NCBI GenBank assembly: GCA_910822395.1
Contig: OU365335.1
Location: forward strand, 1,178,001 to 1,242,000
Source: Pseudoclavibacter triregionum
GTDB taxonomy: Bacteria; Actinomycetota; Actinomycetes; Actinomycetales; Microbacteriaceae
Reading direction: 5' to 3'
Length of the DNA stretch: 64,000 nt
Under the pieces are notes generated by a model, which had not been told where the DNA came from, did not search any database, and saw only the letters and a list, made by a program, of their open reading frames with translations. Of the stretch, positions 6,452 through 57,180 are shown in pieces. A program made the position numbers and the translations under genes. Every line of letters begins with the position of its first letter. Position 1 is the first letter of the stretch.

Positions 6452-7642
6452 CTAGACGAAGGCCGCCTGCCCCGTGATCGCGCGGCCCACGATGAGCGTG
6501 TTCATCTCGCGCGTGCCCTCGTAGGAGTAGATCGCCTCGGCGTCGGCGAAGAAGCGGCCGACGCCGTAGTCGGCGACGATGCCGTTGCCGCCGCACACCT
6601 CGCGGGCGAGCGCCACGGTCTCGCGCATCCGGCTCGTCGCGAACGCCTTCGCGAGCGCCGAGTGCTCGTCGCGCTGCTCGCCGGCGTCGAGCATCTCGGA
6701 GACGCGCGTGCACATGGCGATGGACGCCGTGATGTTGCCGAGGCACGTCACGAGGTGGTCCTGGATCATCTGGTGCTTCGCGATCGGCTTGCCGAACTGC
6801 ACGCGCTCGGTCGCGTACTTCAGCGCCGCCTCGTAGGCGCCGACGGCGATGCCCGTCGCGAGCCAGGCGACCTCGGCGCGCGTCTGGCGCAGCACGGCGG
6901 CGGTGTCGCGGAAGGAGTTCGCGTTCGCGAGCCTGTTCGTGTCCGGAACGCGGACGCCCTCGAGGCGGATGTCCGCGTTCTGCACGATGCGCAGCGCGAC
7001 CTTTCGCTCGATCTTCGTCGTCGTGAAGCCGGGGGAGTCGTTCGGGACGATGAAGCCCTTCACCTGGCCGTCGGCGACGTCCTTCGCCCAGATGACGGTG
7101 AGGTCGCCCCAGGTCGCGTTGCCGATCCAGCGCTTCTCGCCGTCTATGATCCACTCGTCGCCCTCGCGGCGGGCGGTCGTCGTGAGGCCCTGCGCGGAGT
7201 CGGAGCCGGAGAGCGGCTCGGTGAGGCCGAAGGAGCCGACGAGCTCGCCCGAGGCGAGCTTCGGGAGCCATTCGGCGCGCTGCTCGGGAGAGCCGCAGAT
7301 GCCGATGGCGCCGAGGGCGAGGCCGTTCTGCACGCCGACGTAGGTCGCGACGCTCGCGTCGACGCGGGCGAGCTCGAGGGCCGTCCAGCCGCGGAAGACG
7401 GCCGAGTTCTCGAAGGGGCGCGTCTCCTCGAAGCCGAGGCCCACGGCGCCCGCCTCGGCGAGGCCCTTCACGATCGCGCGGGGGAACTCCGCCTTCTCCC
7501 AGCACTCGTCGACGACCGGGCGCACCTCGCGGTCGAGGTAGTCGCGGAGCCCCGCGATGAGGCCGCGCTCCCGCTCGGAGAGCTTCGGCTCGAAGCCGTA
7601 GAAGTCGCTCGGCAGCTGGGCGAATGCGATCTGGTCGGACAT
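6452..7642 (-). CDS. Acyl-CoA dehydrogenase, glutaryl-CoA-dehydrogenase-like
   Basis: This 396-aa FAD flavoprotein has the full acyl-CoA dehydrogenase layout: an N-terminal helical domain, the central FAD/substrate motif GLTEPLSGSDSA (about residues 137-148), WIGNATWGDL, and a C-terminal helical domain. The expected catalytic Glu is in SYEGTREMNTLIVGRAITG near the end. The YEGT...GRAITG ending is typical of the glutaryl-CoA dehydrogenase subgroup, which oxidises and decarboxylates glutaryl-CoA, feeding electrons to ETF. Substrate is inferred from family resemblance only. It has a good ribosome site (AAGGAG) and is transcribed divergently from manA. Confidence 0.88.
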   Translation of the reverse strand: MSDQIAFAQLPSDFYGFEPKLSERERGLIAGLRDYLDREVRPVVDECWEKAEFPRAIVKGLAEAGAVGLGFEETRPFENSAVFRGWTALELARVDASVATYVGVQNGLALGAIGICGSPEQRAEWLPKLASGELVGSFGLTEPLSGSDSAQGLTTTARREGDEWIIDGEKRWIGNATWGDLTVIWAKDVADGQVKGFIVPNDSPGFTTTKIERKVALRIVQNADIRLEGVRVPDTNRLANANSFRDTAAVLRQTRAEVAWLATGIAVGAYEAALKYATERVQFGKPIAKHQMIQDHLVTCLGNITASIAMCTRVSEMLDAGEQRDEHSALAKAFATSRMRETVALAREVCGGNGIVADYGVGRFFADAEAIYSYEGTREMNTLIVGRAITGQAAFV

Positions 7643-33951: not shown

Positions 33952-34089
33952 GGCGTTCGGCAGAGCGACCCGGCTGGGACGGGCGGCGGGTCGGCGCGCC
34001 GGGCCCGCCCGGCGCGCCCGGGGCGTCGGGCTCGGCGACGGGCCGGGCCTCCTGCGGGCGCGCGCAGGGGCCTTCGGGAGAATGGCGGC

Positions 34090-34761
34090 ATGACCGCACC
34101 TCGACGCGCCCGGCTCGGCCTCGCGTCCGCGCTCGCCGCCGCGTCGCTGCCGCTGCTCGCCGGCTGCGCGGGGCAGAGCCTCACGATGATGGGCGACCCC
34201 GGGGCGACGCCGTGGGAGATCACGACGCCGGGGCCCATGGACCAGGGCCCGAGCGGCGACGTGACCGCCGTGATGGGCGCCGAGGTGCCCTCGCTCTGCG
34301 GCTCGCCCGCGGGCCGCCTCGAGGACGGCGTCCTCCCGCCGCTCCACGCCTCGAGCGTCGCGACGCTCTCGCCGCAGGGCACCGCCGCCCCGGTGGTCGT
34401 CGCCGACGACATCCGCATCGCCGAGCGGGGGAAGCGCCACGACCCCTTCATCGTCTTCGGGGAGGAGGGGAACGTCGTCATCGGCGCCGCCGCCGTCATG
34501 CAGTGCACCTGGGCTGGCCGGGTCGACGCCGACCGCGTCGTCGTGTGGGGCGACGACCTCTCGCCGCTCGGGGTGATTGAGCTGCGCCCCCTCGACGCCC
34601 GCGGCGCGCCCTCGGTGCTGAGCATGCGGATCGCCCGCGAGGTCGTGCGCGTGACGTGGGAGGTGCGCCGGGCGGACGGCTCGCTCGCCGCCACGCTCGA
34701 GGGCTCGTTCCGCTGGGACGGCGCGCGGTTCCAGGCGGAGGGCGTGGGGGAGACGGGCTAG
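34090..34761 (+). CDS. Small secreted lipoprotein of unknown function
   Basis: This 223-aa protein has signal peptide LGLASALAAASLPLLAGC with the lipobox LAGC at residues 22-25, a Thr/Pro-containing linker, and a beta-rich domain of about 160 residues with a Cys pair (C70 and about C138) that could form a disulfide. I recognise no family. The start at 34090 is the ATG that opens the signal peptide; the open frame runs much further upstream through secA but without coding character. It is the last gene before the rrn operon. Confidence 0.72.
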   Translation: MTAPRRARLGLASALAAASLPLLAGCAGQSLTMMGDPGATPWEITTPGPMDQGPSGDVTAVMGAEVPSLCGSPAGRLEDGVLPPLHASSVATLSPQGTAAPVVVADDIRIAERGKRHDPFIVFGEEGNVVIGAAAVMQCTWAGRVDADRVVVWGDDLSPLGVIELRPLDARGAPSVLSMRIAREVVRVTWEVRRADGSLAATLEGSFRWDGARFQAEGVGETG

Positions 34762-34871
34762 CGCGGCGCTCGCGGACGACCGCCCCGAGGCCTCCCTGAG
34801 GCGCGATCCTCGCGCGAATGCCCCTCTGACCTGCGGAGACGCGCCCGGGCCGTCGCGCGCGGCGGCTCGAG

Positions 34872-34901
34872 TTGACGCTCTCTGATCGCCGTGTATATAG
34901 T
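34872..34901 (+). promoter_or_regulatory. Principal rrn operon promoter
   Basis: TTGACG (34872-34877), 18 bp, then TATAGT (34896-34901) lie about 460 bp before the 16S gene. They are close to the actinobacterial housekeeping consensus and start an AT-richer region. Transcription should begin near 34908. Confidence 0.75.
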
Positions 34902-34907
34902 TATCGA

Positions 34908-35360
34908 GTTGCCGCGCAGGGGGCGAGTCGCCAGCCGGCCGGACAACGAACCGCTCAGCTTCACGCTCGCGCCGGTCGCGATGCAGAGCGCAGCAGGCCA
35001 CTCTCGCAGATCGGAAGATCAGCGCCTCGGCGCGGTCATGATCGGCACGGGAACCACGGCGACACGCCGATTTGGAACTCGGAAGAGAGCCTGGCAAGAT
35101 AGAGAAGTTGCTCTCGGGAGAACGCCTCGCGGCGGGAAACGAGAAGCATCCGATCCTTGAGAACTCAACAGCGTGCACAATGTCAAATGCCAAATAACCT
35201 CGTTGTGCTTTCGATTCATCGGAGCACACGATTCCTTTTGGATTAGACAGATTGTCAGACAATCTGATTTAGTCAGATCAAACTCGCTCGCCGGCCATAT
35301 TCCTGGTCGTGCGCGGCGCACGTTTTGGCAGCCGGTTCGCCGGCTCGCCTGACACACCTT
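34908..35360 (+). other. rrn leader with antitermination-like motif and processing stems
   Basis: This is non-coding leader RNA. It contains CCTTGAGAACTCAACAGCGTGC (centred at 35163), a motif that precedes 16S in many actinobacteria and recurs in the 16S-23S spacer. It also holds a near-perfect palindrome CAGATTGTC/GACAATCTG (35248-35266), likely part of a processing structure. Small open frames here are chance. Confidence 0.6.
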
Positions 35361-40343
<4,983 letters not shown>

Positions 40344-40442
40344 AACAACAACATGGGTCCATGTTGCTCGCGTCCACTTTGTGGTTCTCGATGTACGGTC
40401 GAGAGCCGAACGCCAAGCGTTCGCACGATTCACATCCATAGT

Positions 40443-40561
40443 GTTTCGGCGGCCATAGCGAGAGGGAAACGCCCGGTCACATTCCGAACCCGGAAGCTAA
40501 GACTCTCAGCGCCGATGGTACTGCAGGGGGGACCCTGTGGGAGAGTAGGTCACCGCCGGAC
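40443..40561 (+). rRNA. rrf: 5S ribosomal RNA
   Basis: About 119 nt. It starts near GTTTCGGCGGCCATAGCG and ends CACCGCCGGAC, with CGGCGG (40447-40452) pairing with CCGCCG (40553-40558). CCCGGTCACATTCCGAACCCGG and GGGAGAGTAGGTCACC are standard 5S elements. Confidence 0.95.
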
Positions 40562-49548: not shown

Positions 49549-49621
<73 letters not shown>

Positions 49622-49625
49622 CTGC

Positions 49626-49662: not shown

Positions 49663-50892
49663 TCATGCCCGGAGACCGGTTCCACGCGCGGCGGGCGCCG
49701 CGCCGAAGCGGTCACCCTGACCACGACCGGCATGAGCGCCGTCGCGCGGGCCGTGGCCGGAGCGCGCCCGCTCCGCGTCGTCGGCTGTCTCGGCGCTGGG
49801 CTCCGCGCGACGCGGGGACTCCGCGAGCGCCGACCCCAGCAGGGCGAGATACCCCTCGACGGCGCGTCCGAGTCCGAAGCGCTCCGCCCGGGCGCGGACG
49901 CGCCGCCGATCGAGGCGAGCCGCCGCGAGGGCCGCCTCGGCGAGGTCGGCGACCGAGATGGAGTCCGCGGCGACGCCGCCCTCCCGGCCCGCGACGTCCG
50001 GCAGCGCGCCGATGGGCGTCACCGCCACGGGGGTGCCGCAGGCCATGGCCTCGAGGGCGACGAGCCCGAAGGGCTCGGGCCAGATCGAGGACACGAGGTG
50101 GACGTCGGCCTCCCGCACCCGCTCGGCGAGCTCCGCGTGCCGGAGGTGCCCGAGCCAGGTGATGTCCGGCCCGAGGCGGGGCGCGATGTCCGCCTCGAAG
50201 TGCGTCGGGTCGGAGATCGGGCCGATGATCTCGAGCCGGAGCCCGGCGAGCCGCGCGGCGTCGATGGCGAGGGGAAGCCCCTTCTCCGGCGTGATGCGGC
50301 CGGTCCAGGTCGCGAGCCGCGGCGCCCCCTCGCGCTCGTCGAGCCTCGGAGCCCACTCATCGAGCTCGATGCCGTTCGGGACGACCGGCACCTCGGCGGG
50401 CGCGAGGAGCTCGCGCCATGCACGCGCCGTGACGGTCGAGACGCTCGCCCAGCGGTGCCATGGCGGCGGCGACCAGCCCGGCCGCTCGATGACCGCCGTC
50501 ACCCGCTCGAGCGTCGCGGGCGTGTGGAGGAGCGTGAGCATCGGGAGATCCGCGGCCTCGGCGTACGGCACGGCGCTCAGCGAGTTGTTGAGGATGACCT
50601 CGCAGCCCGCCTCGCGCAGCCGGCGCAGCCCTCGCCGCGTGGCGGCCTCGACCTCGAGCTGCTGCGCCTCGGCCTGATCGCCGAGGAGCCTCGGCGCGCG
50701 CCACGCGAAGTCGGCGCGCAGGATCTCCTCGATGGCGACGCCCTCGACCTGCGATCCCGCCTTCGCGGCGAGGATCACCTCGTGGCCGCGCGCGGCGAGC
50801 GCCGCGGCGACCTGGCCGGTGTGGGCCTCGAGCCCGCCGCCGTAGGGCTCCGCGATGGGGAGGTGCGCGTGGGCGAGGAGGCCGATCTTCAC
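49663..50892 (-). CDS. GT4-family glycosyltransferase
   Basis: This 409-aa GT-B enzyme has a glycine-rich N-terminal loop (HLPIAEPYGGGLEAHTGQVAAAL, residues about 11-33), a central GRITPEKGLPLAIDAARLAG donor-site start and the retaining-type E-x7-E motif EPFGLVALEAMACGTP (about residues 290-305). The last 50 residues are disordered and charged. It transfers a nucleotide sugar to an unknown acceptor. Start GTG 50892 is supported by a TACACT -10 box 6 nt upstream. It is divergent from the next GT2 and belongs to the 49.7-57.2 kb glycan cluster. Confidence 0.85.
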   Translation of the reverse strand: MKIGLLAHAHLPIAEPYGGGLEAHTGQVAAALAARGHEVILAAKAGSQVEGVAIEEILRADFAWRAPRLLGDQAEAQQLEVEAATRRGLRRLREAGCEVILNNSLSAVPYAEAADLPMLTLLHTPATLERVTAVIERPGWSPPPWHRWASVSTVTARAWRELLAPAEVPVVPNGIELDEWAPRLDEREGAPRLATWTGRITPEKGLPLAIDAARLAGLRLEIIGPISDPTHFEADIAPRLGPDITWLGHLRHAELAERVREADVHLVSSIWPEPFGLVALEAMACGTPVAVTPIGALPDVAGREGGVAADSISVADLAEAALAAARLDRRRVRARAERFGLGRAVEGYLALLGSALAESPRRAEPSAETADDAERARSGHGPRDGAHAGRGQGDRFGAAPAARGTGLRA

Positions 50893-50898
50893 GGCCCA

Positions 50899-50904
50899 AG
50901 TGTA
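50899..50904 (-). promoter_or_regulatory. -10 box of a leaderless promoter for the GT4 gene
   Basis: TACACT read leftward ends 6 nt before the GTG at 50892. It shares a 65-bp divergent region with the GT2 promoter. Confidence 0.5.
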
Positions 50905-50945
50905 CGGAATCCGAGCTTCACCAGGAATTTTCAGAGGTTGCGATC

Positions 50946-50951
50946 TAGTCT
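50946..50951 (+). promoter_or_regulatory. -10 box of a leaderless promoter for the GT2 gene
   Basis: TAGTCT ends 6 nt before the ATG at 50958, with no ribosome site. Confidence 0.5.
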
Positions 50952-50957
50952 CGAAGC

Positions 50958-51779
50958 ATGGGATGGAGCGTGTGCGCGATCACGGCATGCCGCGACGAGC
51001 ACCTGCTCGCCCAGATCGCCGGGGTCGAGGCGTCCGTCCCCCCGCCGCTCGAGCACGTCGTCGTCTTCATGGGCCAGGAGGACCGGCCGTGGGCGGAGCG
51101 GCCCCGACTCGTCCGGGACGTGCTCCTGCCCGGTCCCGTCGACCTCGCGCGCGCCCGCAATCGCGCCGTCGCCGAGGCGCGCGGCGAGGTGGCCGTGCTC
51201 CTCGACGTCGACTGCATCCCGGCGCCCGAGACGGTCGCCTCGCTCGCGGAGGAGGCCGCCGAGACGGGCGCGGTCGTCATGGCCGAGCCGCGCTACCTCG
51301 CCCCCGACTGGGATCGGGCCTCCGACCCCGCCCTCCACGCCATCCCGCACCCGGCCCGCGCCGAGCTCGGCGTCGGCGAGAGCGAGCGGGTCGAGATGTT
51401 CTGGTCGCTCGGCTTCGCGGTGCGGAAGGACGTCTTCGACCGGATCGGCGGCTTCGACGAGGGCTACCGCGGCTACGGCGCCGAGGACACCGACTTCGCC
51501 TTCGCCGCGCGCGAGGCGGACGTCCCGATCCGCTTCAGCGCGGCGCCCGTCTTCCATCAGGCGCACGCCGTCGTGAAGCCTCCGCTCCAGCACGCGGCGG
51601 CGCTCGTGCGGAACGCGAACCGCTTCGCGGAGCGCTGGGGACGGCTGCCGATGGAGGGGTGGCTCGCGGGCCTCGAGCGGCTCGGGCTCGTCGCCGTCGA
51701 GGGCGAGCGGGCGACGCTCCTTCGCGAGCCGAGCGAGGCGGAGATCGCCGCGCGGACGCTCCCGCTCGCGCGGTTCTAG
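50958..51779 (+). CDS. GT2/GT7-type glycosyltransferase
   Basis: This 273-aa GT-A protein has VDLARARNRAVAEARGEVAVLLDVDCIP with the metal-binding DxD (VDC region, about residue 86). FAVRKDVFDRIGGFDEGYRGYGAEDTDF (about residues 154-181) matches the galactosyltransferase C-terminal (GT7C) pattern. There is no membrane segment. It probably adds a hexose in the cytoplasm. It converges with the MurG-like gene, their stops overlapping at CTAG. It is the only rightward gene in the cluster. Confidence 0.85.
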   Translation: MGWSVCAITACRDEHLLAQIAGVEASVPPPLEHVVVFMGQEDRPWAERPRLVRDVLLPGPVDLARARNRAVAEARGEVAVLLDVDCIPAPETVASLAEEAAETGAVVMAEPRYLAPDWDRASDPALHAIPHPARAELGVGESERVEMFWSLGFAVRKDVFDRIGGFDEGYRGYGAEDTDFAFAAREADVPIRFSAAPVFHQAHAVVKPPLQHAAALVRNANRFAERWGRLPMEGWLAGLERLGLVAVEGERATLLREPSEAEIAARTLPLARF

Positions 51780-52852
51780 CCGGCAACGTCCGCCCCGACG
51801 GCGAACTCCACGGCTTCCCGGAAGCGCTCGCCGTACTCCCGCTCCGAGACGAGGAGGCCCCGGGCGAGGGCATCCGGGTCGGCGGCCTCGGCGCGCTCGA
51901 GCAGCTCCGGCCAGGATGCGGCGGCCCAGCTCGGGGCCGTGGGCGTGCCGAACGTCGCCGCGAGGCGCTCGGCGAAGGCCGCCTGCTCGCGATGCGGCCT
52001 CGGCTCGGGCACGAGGACGAGGGGACGCCCGGCGGCGGCCACGTCGGCCACGGTGTTCGCCCCGGCCCCCGCGACGATCGCGGCCGCCCGCGCGAGGAAC
52101 GGCGCCGCGGGCCGGTCGCCGAGGAGGACGACCTCGTTCGGAAGCGCGGCGAGCTCGGCGGCCGCACCGTGCACCGCGCCGAGGACGGCCCACCGCCGCC
52201 CGGGGGTCGCGGCGGCCGCGCGGGCGAGCTCGGCCGCCGGGACGCCGTCGCCGCCTCGGCCCGAGAGCACGACGACGGCGCCCTCGGCGGCGTCGAGGTG
52301 CGCGGGGTCGAGCGCCGATTCGTGCGCGGGATCGGGGGCCGCCGGGGCGGGCATCCCCAGCCACGAGCACCGGCCGGCCCGCTCGCGGGCGAACGCCGGG
52401 TCCTCGACGGACTCCGGATAGTAGGCGAGCAGCCGGTCGGCGAGGTCGTAGGCGAGCTCGTGCGCGCGATCGCGGCGGTCGCCCGGCATCCGGCGCACGG
52501 CGACGCGGTAGCCGGAGAGCGCCGCGAAGGCGGCGGCCTCGACGCTCACGTCGACGACGACGAGCTCGGGATCGTGGGCCTCGAGTGCGGCGTGGAAGGC
52601 GGCCATGCGGCGGCGGACGGCCGGAGTGCGCGGCGTCCAGTGGAACGGCGAGCCCTCGGGCTCCCGGTGCGGGTCGAGGTCGTCGGGCGGCAGCTCGACG
52701 CCGCCCGGGAGGCGGCCGGCGCCGGTGCCCACGACGACGAGCTCCGCGAGGTCGAGCCGCGCGAGCCGCTCGGCGTGGCGGAGATGGCCGGAGCCGTGGT
52801 GGTGGGCGTAGTAGAGGAGGCGACGGCGCGGGGGCGCCGCGGACACGGTCAT
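51776..52852 (-). CDS. GT28/MurG-like glycosyltransferase
   Basis: This 358-aa GT-B protein starts LLYYAHHHGSGHLRHAERLA (residues 11-30), the glycine/histidine loop seen in MurG and MGD-type transferases that use UDP-sugars. The C-terminal half has VVLSGRGGDG, the donor-site IVAGAGANTVADVAAAGRPLVLVPEPRPHREQ read in two pieces, and a helical end. Sugar and acceptor are unknown. The ATG overlaps the preceding stop (ATGA); it is the last gene of the five-gene leftward operon. Confidence 0.82.
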   Translation of the reverse strand: MTVSAAPPRRRLLYYAHHHGSGHLRHAERLARLDLAELVVVGTGAGRLPGGVELPPDDLDPHREPEGSPFHWTPRTPAVRRRMAAFHAALEAHDPELVVVDVSVEAAAFAALSGYRVAVRRMPGDRRDRAHELAYDLADRLLAYYPESVEDPAFARERAGRCSWLGMPAPAAPDPAHESALDPAHLDAAEGAVVVLSGRGGDGVPAAELARAAAATPGRRWAVLGAVHGAAAELAALPNEVVLLGDRPAAPFLARAAAIVAGAGANTVADVAAAGRPLVLVPEPRPHREQAAFAERLAATFGTPTAPSWAAASWPELLERAEAADPDALARGLLVSEREYGERFREAVEFAVGADVAG

Positions 52853-53628
52853 CCGGCCTCCTCCTCGAGCCGGCCGAGGAGCGTGCCGAGCCCGCCCGCG
52901 GCGCGTCCCGGCCAGCGTCCCGACGTGTGCACGATCGGTCCGCTCGTGCCGGCCAGCGGCGTGCCGAGCTCGGCGAGGCGGTCCGTGAGCGCCTGATCCT
53001 CGCCGACGGGCACGTCCGGCATGCCGCCGGCGCGGTCGAGCGCCGAGAGGCGGACGGCGAGGTTCGCGCCGTAGACGTGGTCGTGGCCGCCGTCCGAGCG
53101 CATGCCGGCGGCGATGATCGCCTCGTAGGCGCGTCGGGCGGCGGGGGAGGGCGTCCAGTCGGCGAGCTCGACGAGGGCGCGGGCGCCGGCGGCGCCGGGG
53201 CCGAGCGCGGCGATGCGCTCGAGGTGGCCGGTCATCCAGTCGGCCGGCACGACGGAGTCGGCGTCCGTCGAGAAGAGCCAGGCGCGATCGGGGTCGATCG
53301 GGCCGCCAGCGAGGGCGGCGAGCTCGGCGCGGGCTGCCCGGATGCCCGTCGCCCGGGCGCCGCCCACCGTCTCCGAGTCCTCGTCCTCGACGACGATCCC
53401 TGCGAGGCGTCCCGACTCGACGGGGCCCTCCTCGGCCTCGAGGATCCCGCGCGCGGCCGCGGCCGTCCCGTCGGCGCAGCGGTGCGCGACGAGCGCGATG
53501 ACGATCCGCTCGAGCGCGCCCTCCGACAGCGCCCGGCGTGCGGCGTCGAGCACGGAGTCGAGGCAGGTCGAGACCCGTCCCTCCTCGTCGCGGGCGGGGA
53601 TGACGGCGATCGCGGAGGGCGCGCTCAT
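52849..53628 (-). CDS. GT2 glycosyltransferase
   Basis: This 259-aa GT-A protein opens IAVIPARDEEGRVSTCLDSVL. It has the DxD region LFSTDADSVVPADWM (about residues 118-132), then YGANLAVRLSALDRAGGMPDVPVGEDQALTDRL in two parts, carrying the acidic catalytic-base-like GED at about 215. There are no membrane helices. It overlaps the acyl-CoA-dehydrogenase-like gene by four bases. In similar clusters elsewhere this gene accompanies the PIG-L and methyltransferase genes; the product is not known to me. Confidence 0.83.
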   Translation of the reverse strand: MSAPSAIAVIPARDEEGRVSTCLDSVLDAARRALSEGALERIVIALVAHRCADGTAAAARGILEAEEGPVESGRLAGIVVEDEDSETVGGARATGIRAARAELAALAGGPIDPDRAWLFSTDADSVVPADWMTGHLERIAALGPGAAGARALVELADWTPSPAARRAYEAIIAAGMRSDGGHDHVYGANLAVRLSALDRAGGMPDVPVGEDQALTDRLAELGTPLAGTSGPIVHTSGRWPGRAAGGLGTLLGRLEEEAG

Positions 53629-54737
53629 GCGCCGGGCCCGTCGAGGAGCCGGCGGCCGAGGCCGGCGAGGGCGAGGTCGTGGGGATGCTGGGCGAGGTAG
53701 AGCTCGAGATCGGCGACGGCCTGGATGAGGGCGTCCTCGTGCGCGAGCGCGCTCGCGCCGGCGAGCGGGCGGGCGAGCTCGAGCGCGCGGCGCCCGGAGA
53801 GGGCCACGCCGGCGCGGCACAGCGCGGCGAGCTCGGCGGCGGCCCCCGCCTCGGCGTCGGCGGCGGCGAGCCGGTCGAGCATGGCGCCGGTCCGGCGGCA
53901 GAGGGCCGCGGAGCTCGCGGCCTCGACGCGGATGCCGCCGAGCCGCGCGAGCTGGAGCTCGCCAGGCTCGCGACCGGCCGCCGCCTGCCCGCGGAGCCGA
54001 TCCGCGAGGACGTCCATGAGCCGCGCGATCCCGCCGGCCCAGCACGCGGCGACCCCCGCGCCGCCGGGGAGGAAACCCCAGCGTCCGAGGTACGCCCCCG
54101 GCCCGCCGATCCGCCGCCCCGCCACGACGACGCCGTCGCCCTCGAGGTCGAGCGAGCGCGAGCGGGCCATCGCCTCCGTGCGCCAGGAGCCCTCGTCGCC
54201 GCGGAGCGCGGAGACGTCGAGGTCGAGGAGGAGCTGCGCGTCGTCATCCGGCCGCTCGCCCGGCACGGTCGTGAGCGCGCGGTCGAGCAGGCCCGCGCCG
54301 GAGGCGAAGCGGAGCGTGCCGTCGATCCGCCAGGCGCCCTCGCCCTCCGGCTCGGCGCGCCAGCCGCTGCCGCGGGACTTCGAGGCCCAGACGCCGTAGA
54401 GGGCGCCCGGCTCGGGCTCGGCGCCGAGCTCCCGCAGCACGCGGAGCGCGTCGAGGTGCCCCTCGGACAGGCGCGCGAGCGCTGCGTCGACGCGGCCGAG
54501 CCGGAGGCAGCGATCGACGAGGGCGCTCCAGCTCGCCACGTCCTCGGCGCTCGTCGCGCCGACGAGGGCGAGCACGGCGTCGCGGATGGCCTCGTCCGAG
54601 GCGCCGCGGGCGCGGCCGGCCTCGAGGAGCGCGGCGTCGACGCCGTCGGCGGCGCCGAGCGGGGCGGGCGGCTCGAGCCATGCGGCAGGCACGGCAGGCG
54701 CAGCGTCGCGGCCGCGCGCGAGGTCATCCGGGATCAT
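53625..54737 (-). CDS. Acyl-CoA-dehydrogenase-like protein inside the glycan operon
   Basis: This 370-aa protein follows the acyl-CoA dehydrogenase outline: an N-terminal helical part (residues 1-95), a beta-domain with GVWASKSRGSGW and WRIDGTLRFASGAGLLDRAL (about residues 125-160), and a C-terminal helical bundle (about 225-370). I cannot identify the usual catalytic Glu or a C-terminal YxGT-type motif, so it may be a diverged flavoenzyme or a pseudoenzyme. It lies between the methyltransferase and GT2 genes with four-base overlaps on both sides, which argues for a biosynthetic role, for example oxidising an acyl or sugar-linked chain. Confidence 0.72.
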   Translation of the reverse strand: MIPDDLARGRDAAPAVPAAWLEPPAPLGAADGVDAALLEAGRARGASDEAIRDAVLALVGATSAEDVASWSALVDRCLRLGRVDAALARLSEGHLDALRVLRELGAEPEPGALYGVWASKSRGSGWRAEPEGEGAWRIDGTLRFASGAGLLDRALTTVPGERPDDDAQLLLDLDVSALRGDEGSWRTEAMARSRSLDLEGDGVVVAGRRIGGPGAYLGRWGFLPGGAGVAACWAGGIARLMDVLADRLRGQAAAGREPGELQLARLGGIRVEAASSAALCRRTGAMLDRLAAADAEAGAAAELAALCRAGVALSGRRALELARPLAGASALAHEDALIQAVADLELYLAQHPHDLALAGLGRRLLDGPGA

Positions 54738-55330
54738 GTCCGCCTCCACACCCGCATCGAGAAGTCCTCGTCGTCGAGCGACGCGAGGAGGCGCCAGCCG
54801 GCTGCGGGGGCCGATCCGGTGCCGAGGGCGGCGTCGAGCTCCTCGCGGAGCGCGGCGCCGGAGATCGCGAGGTCCTCGCCGTCGCCGGTCCAGTGGACGG
54901 CGAGGAGGTCGCCGCCGGGCGCAAGGGCCGCCCCGACCGCCTCGAGGGTCGCGGCGCGGGCATCCTCGGGCAGGTAGTAGAGGACCTCCGCGAGCACGCA
55001 GAGCTCGCAGCCGCGCGCCGCGTCCGGCACGGCCGGCAGGGCGGCGACCTCCGCCTCGAGGCCGCGCTCGCGCATGCGCTCGACGGCGACCGCCGAGGCG
55101 TCGCTCGCGACGACGGCATCGGCCCGCTCGGCGAGCGCGCGGGTGAGGGCGCCGGTGCCGGCCGCCGCATCCCACGCGAGCCGGTAGCGGGCGCGGGGGA
55201 GGAGGGCGAGCGCGATCGCCTCCTTCCGCCGCTCGTACCAGGAGGTCTCGACGTCGAAGGGGTCGGGGTCGTCCCGGTAGCGGGCGTCGAAGTCGGGAGC
55301 CTCGCCGGAGCGCGGCGGCGCCGCGGTCAC
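54734..55330 (-). CDS. Class I SAM-dependent methyltransferase (NodS-like)
   Basis: This 198-aa protein has a Rossmann methyltransferase core: motif I AWDAAAGTGALTRALAERA (about residues 50-68), acidic VVASDASAVAVERM, and the post-motif LCVLAEVLYYLPEDARA (about residues 107-123). NodS-like enzymes of this group N-methylate an amino sugar after deacetylation, which fits the PIG-L deacetylase encoded just upstream. That substrate is inference. GTG 55330 overlaps the fusion-gene stop (GTGA). Confidence 0.82.
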   Translation of the reverse strand: MTAAPPRSGEAPDFDARYRDDPDPFDVETSWYERRKEAIALALLPRARYRLAWDAAAGTGALTRALAERADAVVASDASAVAVERMRERGLEAEVAALPAVPDAARGCELCVLAEVLYYLPEDARAATLEAVGAALAPGGDLLAVHWTGDGEDLAISGAALREELDAALGTGSAPAAGWRLLASLDDEDFSMRVWRRT

Positions 55331-57180
55331 GGCCGGGTCCCGTCGCCGAACGCGAGGCGCTGACGGTCGTGGGCGCGCAGCGCCCGCTCGGGCACGACGG
55401 GCGGCCAGGCGGGGTCGAGCGGCTCGAGCTGGGAGGCGTACTCGGCGAGGGCGGCCGCGCGCGCCGCGTCGGCCTCGGGCGGCGTCGCGACGGCGACGAT
55501 CTCGGCGCCGAGGACGGGCATCTCGTCGGGTCGGAGCCAGGTCATCGCCCACACGGGGTACTCGATGCAGGGGATGCCGAGCGTCGCGGCCGCCCGAGCC
55601 GCCGCGCGCCCCGCCGCCGCGTGGTCGGGGTGGGGATCGCGTCGCCACGGCGCGACGATCGCCTCGGCACGGATCCGGCTCGCCGCGCGCGCGAGCTCGG
55701 CCGCGAGGTCACCGGCCGGCGCCTCCGCAAGCTGCCCGTCCGGGTGCCGCGAGCTCTCCAGCGTCTCGACGCCGAGCGCGGCGAGCGCGCGACGCCACTC
55801 GTCGATCCGGCGCCGTCCCATCTCGGCTGGGTCGATCGAGGGATGGGGCGCGCAGGCCTCGCCCTCGGTGAGGACGACGGCCCCGAGGCGCGCTCCGCGA
55901 GCCGCGGCGGTCGCGAGCATCCGCCCCGCGCCGATGGCCTCGTCGTCGGGGTGCGCGCTCACGCAGAGCGCCGAGCCGACCCCCTCCAGGGGATCGCGGA
56001 CTTCGCGCTCGCCCGAGCGAGCCCGGTCCCAGGCGAGCGGCGCCGCCGAGGGCGGGGACGAGGTGGGAGCGTCCTCGAGCGCGCGTGCCCAGACCGCCGC
56101 CATCTCCTCGGCGATCCGCTCCCGCTCCGCGAGCCGGGCGTCGACGTCGACGGGAGGCGGCGGGCCGAGCTCGGCCGCCCGCCGGATCGCCGCGCGGAGC
56201 GACTCGGCGTCCAGCCTCGACTCCTCATGCCCGTAGGAGAGGACGTCCCCCTGATCGGCGTACGCCCCGCAGCTCGGCGCGATGACGCGCGTGCCGAGGT
56301 CGGCGCAGGCCTCGAGCCAGCCCGAGTGGGTGCCGAAGCGGTAGGGGAGGACGGAGGCGTCGAGCGAGGAGAGGTAGGCCCAGAGGTCCTCGTCCGAGAA
56401 GTAGTCGTGGACCTCCAGCCGGATGCGCCCCGCCTCGGCCTCGCGCTCGAGGAAGCCCGCGAGCTCCGCGTCGTAGCGCGCGCCGCCCGGCTCGAGCAGA
56501 TCGCGGTGGCCGTCGACGCGCACCTCACCGCCCGGCAGCTCGAGGACGGCGGGGATGAGCGTCTCGAGCACGGGCAGCGGGGCCATGTTCGCGCGGAGGC
56601 TCTTCACGTGAAGGCCGACGACGAAGCGGCCGTCGTCGCGACGGCGTCCGCCCGGCGCGGCGACGCGACGCATCGTGGCCTCGTCGACGACGTGCGGGTG
56701 GGGGAGGACGACCGCGCGGCGGCCCCAGCGGCGCTCGATCTCCCGCGCCGCCGTCGGCGTGAGCGTGACGACGACGGCGGCCGCGGGGACGAGCACCCCG
56801 AGCTGGGCATCGTGGAGGGAGCGGTCCTCGTGGTGCGGATTGCGGAGGTCGTGCACCGTCATGACGAGCGGCCGGCCGGCCGCTCGGAGCGCCTCGACGA
56901 GCTCGCGGAGCTGCTCGGGCGTGCGCGCGTCGAAACCGAAGTGGATCTGGAAGATGTCGAACTCGCCCGCGTGCGCGCGGACCCACTCCGCCTCGAGCAT
57001 CTTCGGCGGCCACCACTTCGCGCCGGCCGGCCGGCGGGGATCGTCGGGGTCGGGATCGGAGAGCAGGCGGACTCGAGTCCGCGCCCCGTCGGCCGGCAGC
57101 AGGTGGCGCACGTAGACGTGCCCCGAGGGAACGGAGGCGATGCGCAGGAGCGCGCCCTCGCGGGCGTCGGCGTCGGCCAT
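55327..57180 (-). CDS. Glycosyltransferase fused to a PIG-L family deacetylase
   Basis: This 617-aa protein has two domains. Residues 1 to about 370 are GT-B-like, with FDIFQIHFGFDA, VMTVHDLRNPHHEDRSLHD, VGLHVKSLRANMAPL and the donor-side ASVLPYRFGTHSGWLEACADLGT. Residues about 400-617 are a PIG-L deacetylase: zinc-site SAHPDDEAIGAG (H410, D412, D413) and HPDH (517-520) are both intact. PIG-L enzymes remove acetyl groups from GlcNAc-containing lipids or MshB-type substrates. The fusion suggests transfer of a GlcNAc-type sugar followed by de-N-acetylation. ATG 57180 follows GGAGAGGA and is the first gene of the operon. Confidence 0.85.
   Translation of the reverse strand: MADADAREGALLRIASVPSGHVYVRHLLPADGARTRVRLLSDPDPDDPRRPAGAKWWPPKMLEAEWVRAHAGEFDIFQIHFGFDARTPEQLRELVEALRAAGRPLVMTVHDLRNPHHEDRSLHDAQLGVLVPAAAVVVTLTPTAAREIERRWGRRAVVLPHPHVVDEATMRRVAAPGGRRRDDGRFVVGLHVKSLRANMAPLPVLETLIPAVLELPGGEVRVDGHRDLLEPGGARYDAELAGFLEREAEAGRIRLEVHDYFSDEDLWAYLSSLDASVLPYRFGTHSGWLEACADLGTRVIAPSCGAYADQGDVLSYGHEESRLDAESLRAAIRRAAELGPPPPVDVDARLAERERIAEEMAAVWARALEDAPTSSPPSAAPLAWDRARSGEREVRDPLEGVGSALCVSAHPDDEAIGAGRMLATAAARGARLGAVVLTEGEACAPHPSIDPAEMGRRRIDEWRRALAALGVETLESSRHPDGQLAEAPAGDLAAELARAASRIRAEAIVAPWRRDPHPDHAAAGRAAARAAATLGIPCIEYPVWAMTWLRPDEMPVLGAEIVAVATPPEADAARAAALAEYASQLEPLDPAWPPVVPERALRAHDRQRLAFGDGTRP

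Follow-up and report, generated by a model that had tools for sequence, protein, structure and literature searches.

The window analysed here is a stretch of 64,000 nucleotides from Pseudoclavibacter triregionum (contig OU365335.1), where it covers positions 1178001-1242000; the genome is a single contig of 2.36 Mb, with its completeness rated at 90%. The window contains a cluster of seven genes whose enzymes, on balance, probably build an N-methylated amino-sugar glycoside, mainly in cells under stress (oxidative stress, desiccation or stationary phase). Comparison with relatives indicates that two modules have merged in this cluster: a widespread core, consisting of a GT2 glycosyltransferase (GT2a), a PIG-L deacetylase, a NodS-like methyltransferase and a flavoprotein with the fold of acyl-CoA dehydrogenases (ACADs), and a second module of glycosyltransferases. 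The enzymes appear to be of known kinds in a new combination, which falls under none of the pathways tested. A reading made from the sequence alone had placed the seven genes at 49663..57180, with five leftward genes joined by four-base overlaps and flanked by a GT4 gene and a GT2 gene, and all these positions agree with ours:

55327..57180, minus strand: fusion of an N-terminal glycosyltransferase-like domain, GTn (about residues 1-395), with a C-terminal PIG-L domain (residues 405-530 by Pfam, E 8e-27)
54734..55330, minus strand: NodS-like S-adenosylmethionine-dependent methyltransferase, proposed N-methyltransferase (Pfam Methyltransf_25 E 3.5e-9, NodS E 1.7e-5)
53625..54737, minus strand: ACAD-fold flavoprotein, proposed oxidase or monooxygenase (Pfam Acyl-CoA_dh_1 E 0.027, below the cut-off; structure model)
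52849..53628, minus strand: GT2a, core glycosyltransferase of GT-A fold, proposed to transfer the amino-sugar unit (Pfam GT2 E 8e-6)
51776..52852, minus strand: GT28-like glycosyltransferase of the second module (Pfam Glyco_tran_28_C E 1.1e-5)
50958..51779, plus strand: GT2b glycosyltransferase of the second module (Pfam GT2 E 1.4e-9), collinear with GTn, GT4 and GT28 in relatives
49663..50892, minus strand: GT4 glycosyltransferase of the second module (Pfam Glycos_transf_1 E 6e-20), collinear in relatives

The junctions of the leftward genes overlap by four bases each (55327-55330, 54734-54737, 53625-53628 and 52849-52852). GT2b converges on the GT28-like gene, likewise overlapping it by 4 bases, and is separated by 65 bases from the divergently oriented GT4 gene.

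From these enzymes we infer the reactions, their order, the acceptor, the product and its role. GT2a would transfer an N-acetylhexosamine-type unit onto an acceptor, the PIG-L domain would then take off the acetyl group, and the NodS-like enzyme would then methylate the freed amine. The ACAD-fold flavoenzyme would oxidise the amino-sugar; it might use O2 to oxygenate N or C, in the manner of the sugar N-oxygenases KijD3 and DnmZ. In this organism GTn, GT4, the GT28-like enzyme and GT2b of the second module would extend or cap the glycoside, and the fusion of GTn to PIG-L would tie the two modules together. Sequence comparison provides the clustering, the fusions, the replacement of one deacetylase by another and the stress-gene neighbours on which this pathway is built.

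The four-gene core across bacteria

The sequence-only reading had proposed a check for conserved co-occurrence of PIG-L, NodS-like methyltransferase, ACAD-like and GT2 genes, and in the genomes compared these genes are conserved together. Relatives of the window's ACAD-like protein were retrieved from 45 of 149 sampled genomes of the order (its own included), representing 26 of 65 genera, and the family profile gave the same count (45/149). In another tally, 64/396, the weakest matches (E 1e-10 to 1e-13) are probably in part ordinary ACADs. Within the order the four core genes are found together in 35 of the 40 neighbourhoods read (40 of the 44 other matches were read; G005, G077, G099 and G133 were left out). 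The same holds for 71 of 80 named actinobacterial loci, the top 80 among 541 confirmed ones, which represent genera including Arthrobacter, Nocardioides, Cryobacterium, Cellulomonas, Oerskovia, Knoellia and Janibacter. These two sets have at least four genomes in common. Another 14 loci from the phylum were read, and 12 of them have the complete core; the gene order is permuted in several, so that the core is kept together while its order changes.

Plasmids carry the core beyond the Actinomycetota. All four genes are present in 20 of 27 regions from Pseudomonadota, Deinococcota and Actinomycetota, hand-picked from listings of 30 and 48 records. The complete regions come from Acinetobacter, Comamonas, Pandoraea, Legionella, Paracoccus, Sphingomonas, Novosphingobium, Sphingobium, Komagataeibacter, Jiella, Roseivivax and Methylobacterium aquaticum in the Pseudomonadota, and from Deinococcus, Kitasatospora and Embleya in the other phyla. 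Acinetobacter has the core on three plasmid records (L191, L194 and L197); 19 of the 30 records in one listing belong to this genus and some of them are chromosome-sized.

The exceptions are of several kinds. Within the order, L038 and L039 have no PIG-L match, L062 lies at a contig end, and in L060 and L063 PIG-L scored 19 and 26 bits while a PIG-L-like gene was seen by eye beside GT2a. Among the named loci a GT2a match is missing in L102, L108, L120, L128, L129 and L132, both PIG-L and GT2a matches in L106, and L136 and L148 have the ACAD gene only (L148 at a contig end). In the further phylum loci there was no methyltransferase or GT2a match in L221 and no GT2a match in L226. On plasmids, PIG-L in L189 scores 30 bits and lies 4 kb away on the other strand, L195 has no PIG-L match, L258 has a CE4 deacetylase, L269 has no GT2a match, and L260, L261 and L263 have the ACAD gene only. 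The genes of L238, L097, L099 and L124 were found by six-frame search. A zinc-dependent alcohol dehydrogenase and an ABC ATPase recur as neighbours and may be just common families.

When the whole window was scanned with profiles of the cluster genes, the only match above 18 bits outside the cluster was another ACAD at 6536-7195 (25 bits), which matches the Pfam ACAD N-domain with 80 bits. Because the scan was near-empty outside the cluster and the same genes cluster again in many genomes, the clustering appears to be more than chance. In public records the core genes stand under unrelated generic names ('acyl-CoA dehydrogenase', 'PIG-L family deacetylase', 'SAM-dependent methyltransferase' and 'glycosyltransferase'). 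If the proposed pathway is right, these four genes form a compact route to a compound common to Actinomycetota, Pseudomonadota and Deinococcus.

Deacetylase, methyltransferase and flavoprotein

De-N-acetylation and N-methylation are, as far as gene comparison goes, well supported as steps of the pathway. The PIG-L domain scores 94.7 bits against its Pfam family (cut-off 28.2) and has intact motifs, HPDD at 410 and HPDH at 517 of the fusion, which we take to be the zinc-site motifs of PIG-L (CE14) de-N-acetylases. The methyltransferase has the motif DAAAGTG. In 100 of 118 actinobacterial loci (27/38 in the order set, 73/80 in the named set) PIG-L and methyltransferase are encoded in one open frame. 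The sequence-only reading had placed de-N-acetylation before N-methylation, and these fusions back that part of it, as does the replacement of PIG-L in a group of loci of Rubrobacter type. None of the 24 loci of this type (L234-L257; 23 from one family and one, G205, from another) has a PIG-L match, and all 24 have a CE4 (NodB-type) polysaccharide deacetylase in the operon instead. Two unrelated deacetylase folds thus fill one role, which is the strongest argument for the deacetylation step.

The gene order in these loci is CE4, ACAD, methyltransferase, reductase and GT2a, and a plasmid of Rubrobacter indicoceani has the same order by its public annotation. Pfam matches in one of them, L234, were PF01522 (E 6e-23), Pyr_redox_2 (E 2e-58) and NodS (E 5e-18). 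The Pyr_redox_2 flavoprotein reductase lies between methyltransferase and GT2a in 22/24 loci and has no counterpart in the window cluster; it might supply the ACAD-fold enzyme with electrons. Two loci lack the reductase and three lack GT2a, all of them short stretches near contig ends. Four of the 24 loci served to build the CE4 and ACAD profiles and three to build the reductase profile, and one further match from the family, G339, lies outside the 24 loci read.

The logic of GT2, de-N-acetylase and NodS-type methyltransferase is that of Nod factor core synthesis (NodC, NodB and NodS). The likeness extends to the CE4/NodB-type deacetylase of the Rubrobacter-type clusters, whereas the window cluster has PIG-L, its GT2a is a GT-A domain of 259 residues, and a flavoprotein is part of the set. 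By analogy with NodS, the methyltransferase would most simply act on the freed amine. It exceeds the cut-off of the Pfam NodS domain only just (25.2 bits, cut-off 24). Nod factor synthesis itself was rejected, as the methyltransferase reaches 27.8 bits against the NodS equivalog cut-off of 300, and no NodA N-acyltransferase was found in a Pfam and NCBIfam search that covered the seven cluster proteins.

A PIG-L domain in an actinobacterial host could also suggest a variant of mycothiol synthesis, in which MshB and Mca are deacetylases of the same family, and the sequence-only reading had named mycothiol and teichoic acid synthesis as pathways to which the set might turn out to belong. The partner genes differ from those of MshB and Mca, and the scores for both pathways are far below their cut-offs: the PIG-L domain has 25.2 bits for MshB (cut-off 224.35) and 20.2 for Mca (cut-off 277.15). 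The other PIG-L gene of the genome is Mca, with 348 bits, and the core also occurs in Pseudomonadota and Deinococcota. A mycothiol variant has next to no chance of being correct.

For the ACAD-like protein NCBIfam gave no match at E 0.01. Its structure model (pLDDT 85.6, pTM 0.85) has the ACAD fold. In Foldseek its ranks 1-15 are all DszC/TdsC monooxygenases, although the VIA-align Z scores tie between ACADs and TdsC and do not separate the groups. DszC and TdsC are its closest solved relatives (TdsC profile E 1.8e-12, Foldseek E 3e-11), and the family's invariant His in the motif ExH and its Ser in CSG/ASG both have counterparts in the alignment with DszC (His and Ser, respectively), presumably active-site residues. 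The identity is about 16-21% and the setting differs, with glycan genes instead of desulphurisation. KijD3, DnmZ and the nitrososynthase of Micromonospora are also ACAD-fold flavoenzymes and act on amino-sugars; the model matches KijD3 (Foldseek E 3e-9) and the Micromonospora carbonacea nitrososynthase (Foldseek E 1.2e-9), and the profile matches KijD3 as well (E 3e-9). Those enzymes tailor antibiotic sugars. PMC5481743 describes such enzymes as N-oxygenases that modify glycosides.

If the protein were a true acyl-CoA or acyl-ACP dehydrogenase, the pathway would instead make an N-acylated amino-sugar lipid. This is quite unlikely, given the Foldseek ranking, the NAD(P)H reductase-type gene added in the Rubrobacter-type loci and the lack of an acyltransferase among the seven proteins. 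Moreover, Glu follows the conserved C-terminal Tyr in 0 of 85 matched ACAD-like sequences (one further sequence has no motif match), at the position that we assume to hold the catalytic base Glu in MCAD-type ACADs. The oxidation step of the sequence-only reading is kept as a putative step, with an enzyme that resembles a two-component flavin monooxygenase as much as a dehydrogenase. A distant relative of the protein occurs without the core on a Gloeothece plasmid (L263, 7102-9724), where genes for an NADPH-dependent FMN reductase and for a methyltransferase lie next to it.

The second glycosyltransferase module

The second module consists of GTn, GT4, the GT28-like gene and GT2b. In 11 of 12 loci from the same family, chosen by their GTn match (L277-L288) and including a genome of the same genus, it forms a collinear block of its own without a nearby ACAD match. 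Twenty loci picked from the order (L200-L219) have the collinear block, likewise free of a nearby ACAD match, in nine cases and a rearranged form with GT4 reversed in seven. We know of no name for the block GTn-GT4-GT28-GT2b. The genes of the sequence-only reading are thus conserved together, but as two modules, which are merged in the window.

GTn, the part of the fusion up to about residue 395, has no Pfam match and is a stand-alone gene in relatives. Its profile had no match among solved structures, and a sequence search with a single protein (P0004) retrieved no solved relative either; neither absence says anything on fold. Among solved structures the profile of the GT28-like family matches CalG4 (E 7e-8), EspG2 and MurG, and the motifs DAD of GT2a and EPFGLVALE of GT4 are present. 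Since GTn belongs to the second module and PIG-L to the core, the fusion joins one domain from each. Among 150 genomes sampled from the family, a full-length match to the fusion was found only in its own genome. One candidate for a second fusion, G665 (match 9-521), was rejected because its locus (L277) contains the second module only, with no PIG-L match.

The modules occur together more often than expected. GT28 is present in 35 and ACAD in 45 of the 149 genomes of the order, and both in 24, compared with 10.6 expected (odds ratio 9.7, p 6e-8, uncorrected for phylogeny and with the own genome counted). They are direct neighbours in 7 of 40 loci of the order, and adjoin in three named loci (L125, L127 and L139) as well as in two that repeat genomes of the order. 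On plasmids of Novosphingobium and Sphingobium one block has, in this order, catalase, GT4, GT2a, GT28, ACAD, PIG-L, methyltransferase and GT2b, so that all seven gene types except GTn directly follow the catalase gene.

The genes might alternatively make or modify a polymer or glycolipid of the cell envelope (teichoic-type, capsule or exopolysaccharide), decorating a lipid-linked repeat and not a small soluble glycoside. A WcbI-type polysaccharide gene (PF18588 E 1e-63 in the one member tested) lies in 11 of the 20 stand-alone second-module loci of the order together with more glycosyltransferases, and the model of GT2a is similar to the polymerases of heparosan and chondroitin as well as to TarS/TarP. 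In addition, glf is present in one core locus and one ACAD-only locus of Deinococcus, and an ABC-transporter ATPase family, albeit a common one, recurs in 19/118 loci. A Pfam search of the seven cluster proteins found no family of flippases, polymerases or ligases, and the NCBIfam matches to teichoic acid and exopolysaccharide enzymes are all far below their cut-offs, so that the known pathways of both kinds were rejected. An envelope polymer seems less probable than a soluble glycoside, while remaining a serious alternative.

Stress-gene neighbours and the proposed product

The link to stress was not part of the sequence-only reading and was added by comparison of neighbouring genes. Eight queries, chosen after the neighbours had been seen, were used (OtsA, OtsB, KatE, Dps, Ku, Mn catalase, a PA2169-type protein and a ferritin-like protein). 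At least one of these genes lies in the stretch in 8/40 loci of the order, 34/80 named loci, 3/14 further phylum loci, 0/24 Rubrobacter-type loci and 13/24 plasmid loci. The total is 58 of 182 ACAD loci (some genomes twice), compared with 0 of 20 control loci with a stand-alone second module. The like-for-like contrast, with loci of the order of about the same length, is 8/40 versus 0/20 (p 0.03), and that between named loci and controls is 34/80 versus 0/20 (p 8e-5). With queries chosen in this way and stretches of differing length, the stress-gene comparison is descriptive. Two Comamonas plasmids (L190 and L196) have the order otsA, ACAD, PIG-L, methyltransferase, GT2 and otsB on a single strand, the genes overlapping slightly or leaving short gaps. 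Both otsA and otsB lie within 10 kb of the core in Acinetobacter towneri and A. soli, as does otsB in Legionella lytica. That trehalose or its phosphate is the acceptor is a guess from the operons of the two Comamonas plasmids.

The occurrence of the ACAD gene on plasmids, 21/30 records of which are predicted to be mobilizable or conjugative, could instead point to resistance or detoxification, with the genes modifying an amino-sugar compound from outside the cell, for example an antibiotic. Some copies have efflux genes nearby (RND in L196 and L269, MFS in L197), and DszC-type enzymes often act on xenobiotics (PMC5481743). The core glycosyltransferases and the presence in many genera of Actinomycetota fit biosynthesis better, however, and the frequent neighbours are catalase, Dps, Ku, ferritin-like and trehalose genes, which makes detoxification very unlikely.

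A stress-related N-methylated amino-sugar glycoside is the reading we prefer, and several observations weigh against it. The stress queries were picked with the neighbours already in view, none of the eight matched any of the 24 Rubrobacter-type loci, and there is no ots gene in the 120 order and named loci. N-methylation depends on a weak NodS similarity of the window protein (E 1.7e-5), and O-methylation is possible instead. Two loci of the order (L038 and L039) combine ACAD, methyltransferase and GT2a with the whole second module but have no PIG-L or CE4 match in 18 kb; their genomes have five and six PIG-L matches elsewhere. The window ACAD-like protein has Pro two residues past the C-terminal motif Gln, where 79/85 sequences have His, and its activity may differ. 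Each module also occurs alone, as 21 of the 45 ACAD genomes lack GT28 and 11 of the 35 GT28 genomes lack ACAD.

In its most specific form, which we put forward only tentatively, the product would be a stress metabolite common to three phyla or more: a small glycoside with an N-methylamino-sugar, oxidised at the nitrogen or in the ring by an ACAD-fold oxygenase and made alongside catalase, Dps, Ku and trehalose in a survival programme. Trehalose or its phosphate would be the acceptor in some lineages, two deacetylase folds would have been recruited for one step, and the form in the window would be elaborated by merging with the second module. If true, this would add a chemical layer to the survival of desiccation and oxidative stress beyond trehalose and catalase, and the natural fusions and the independent replacement of the deacetylase would offer a ready enzyme set for assigning the chemistry. 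No paper on the cluster was recognised in literature searches, a weak absence because all-terms searches with 'PIG-L' retrieved nothing.

Some further features of the window were observed. A 983-residue open frame (51776-54727, minus strand), which extends the GT28 frame back over GT2a and ACAD, was rejected as a gene and regarded as a by-product of the high GC content. A tRNA-Lys gene (CTT) at 49549-49622 lies just outside the cluster next to GT4, on the opposite strand, and could mark an insertion site, and beyond it there is a thiol peroxidase gene (143.6 bits, cut-off 140). In the region 34000-40561 the GC content drops to 0.54-0.56 between 36001 and 40000, and the 23S end and 5S gene were matched at 40445-40561, so that an rRNA operon lies there.

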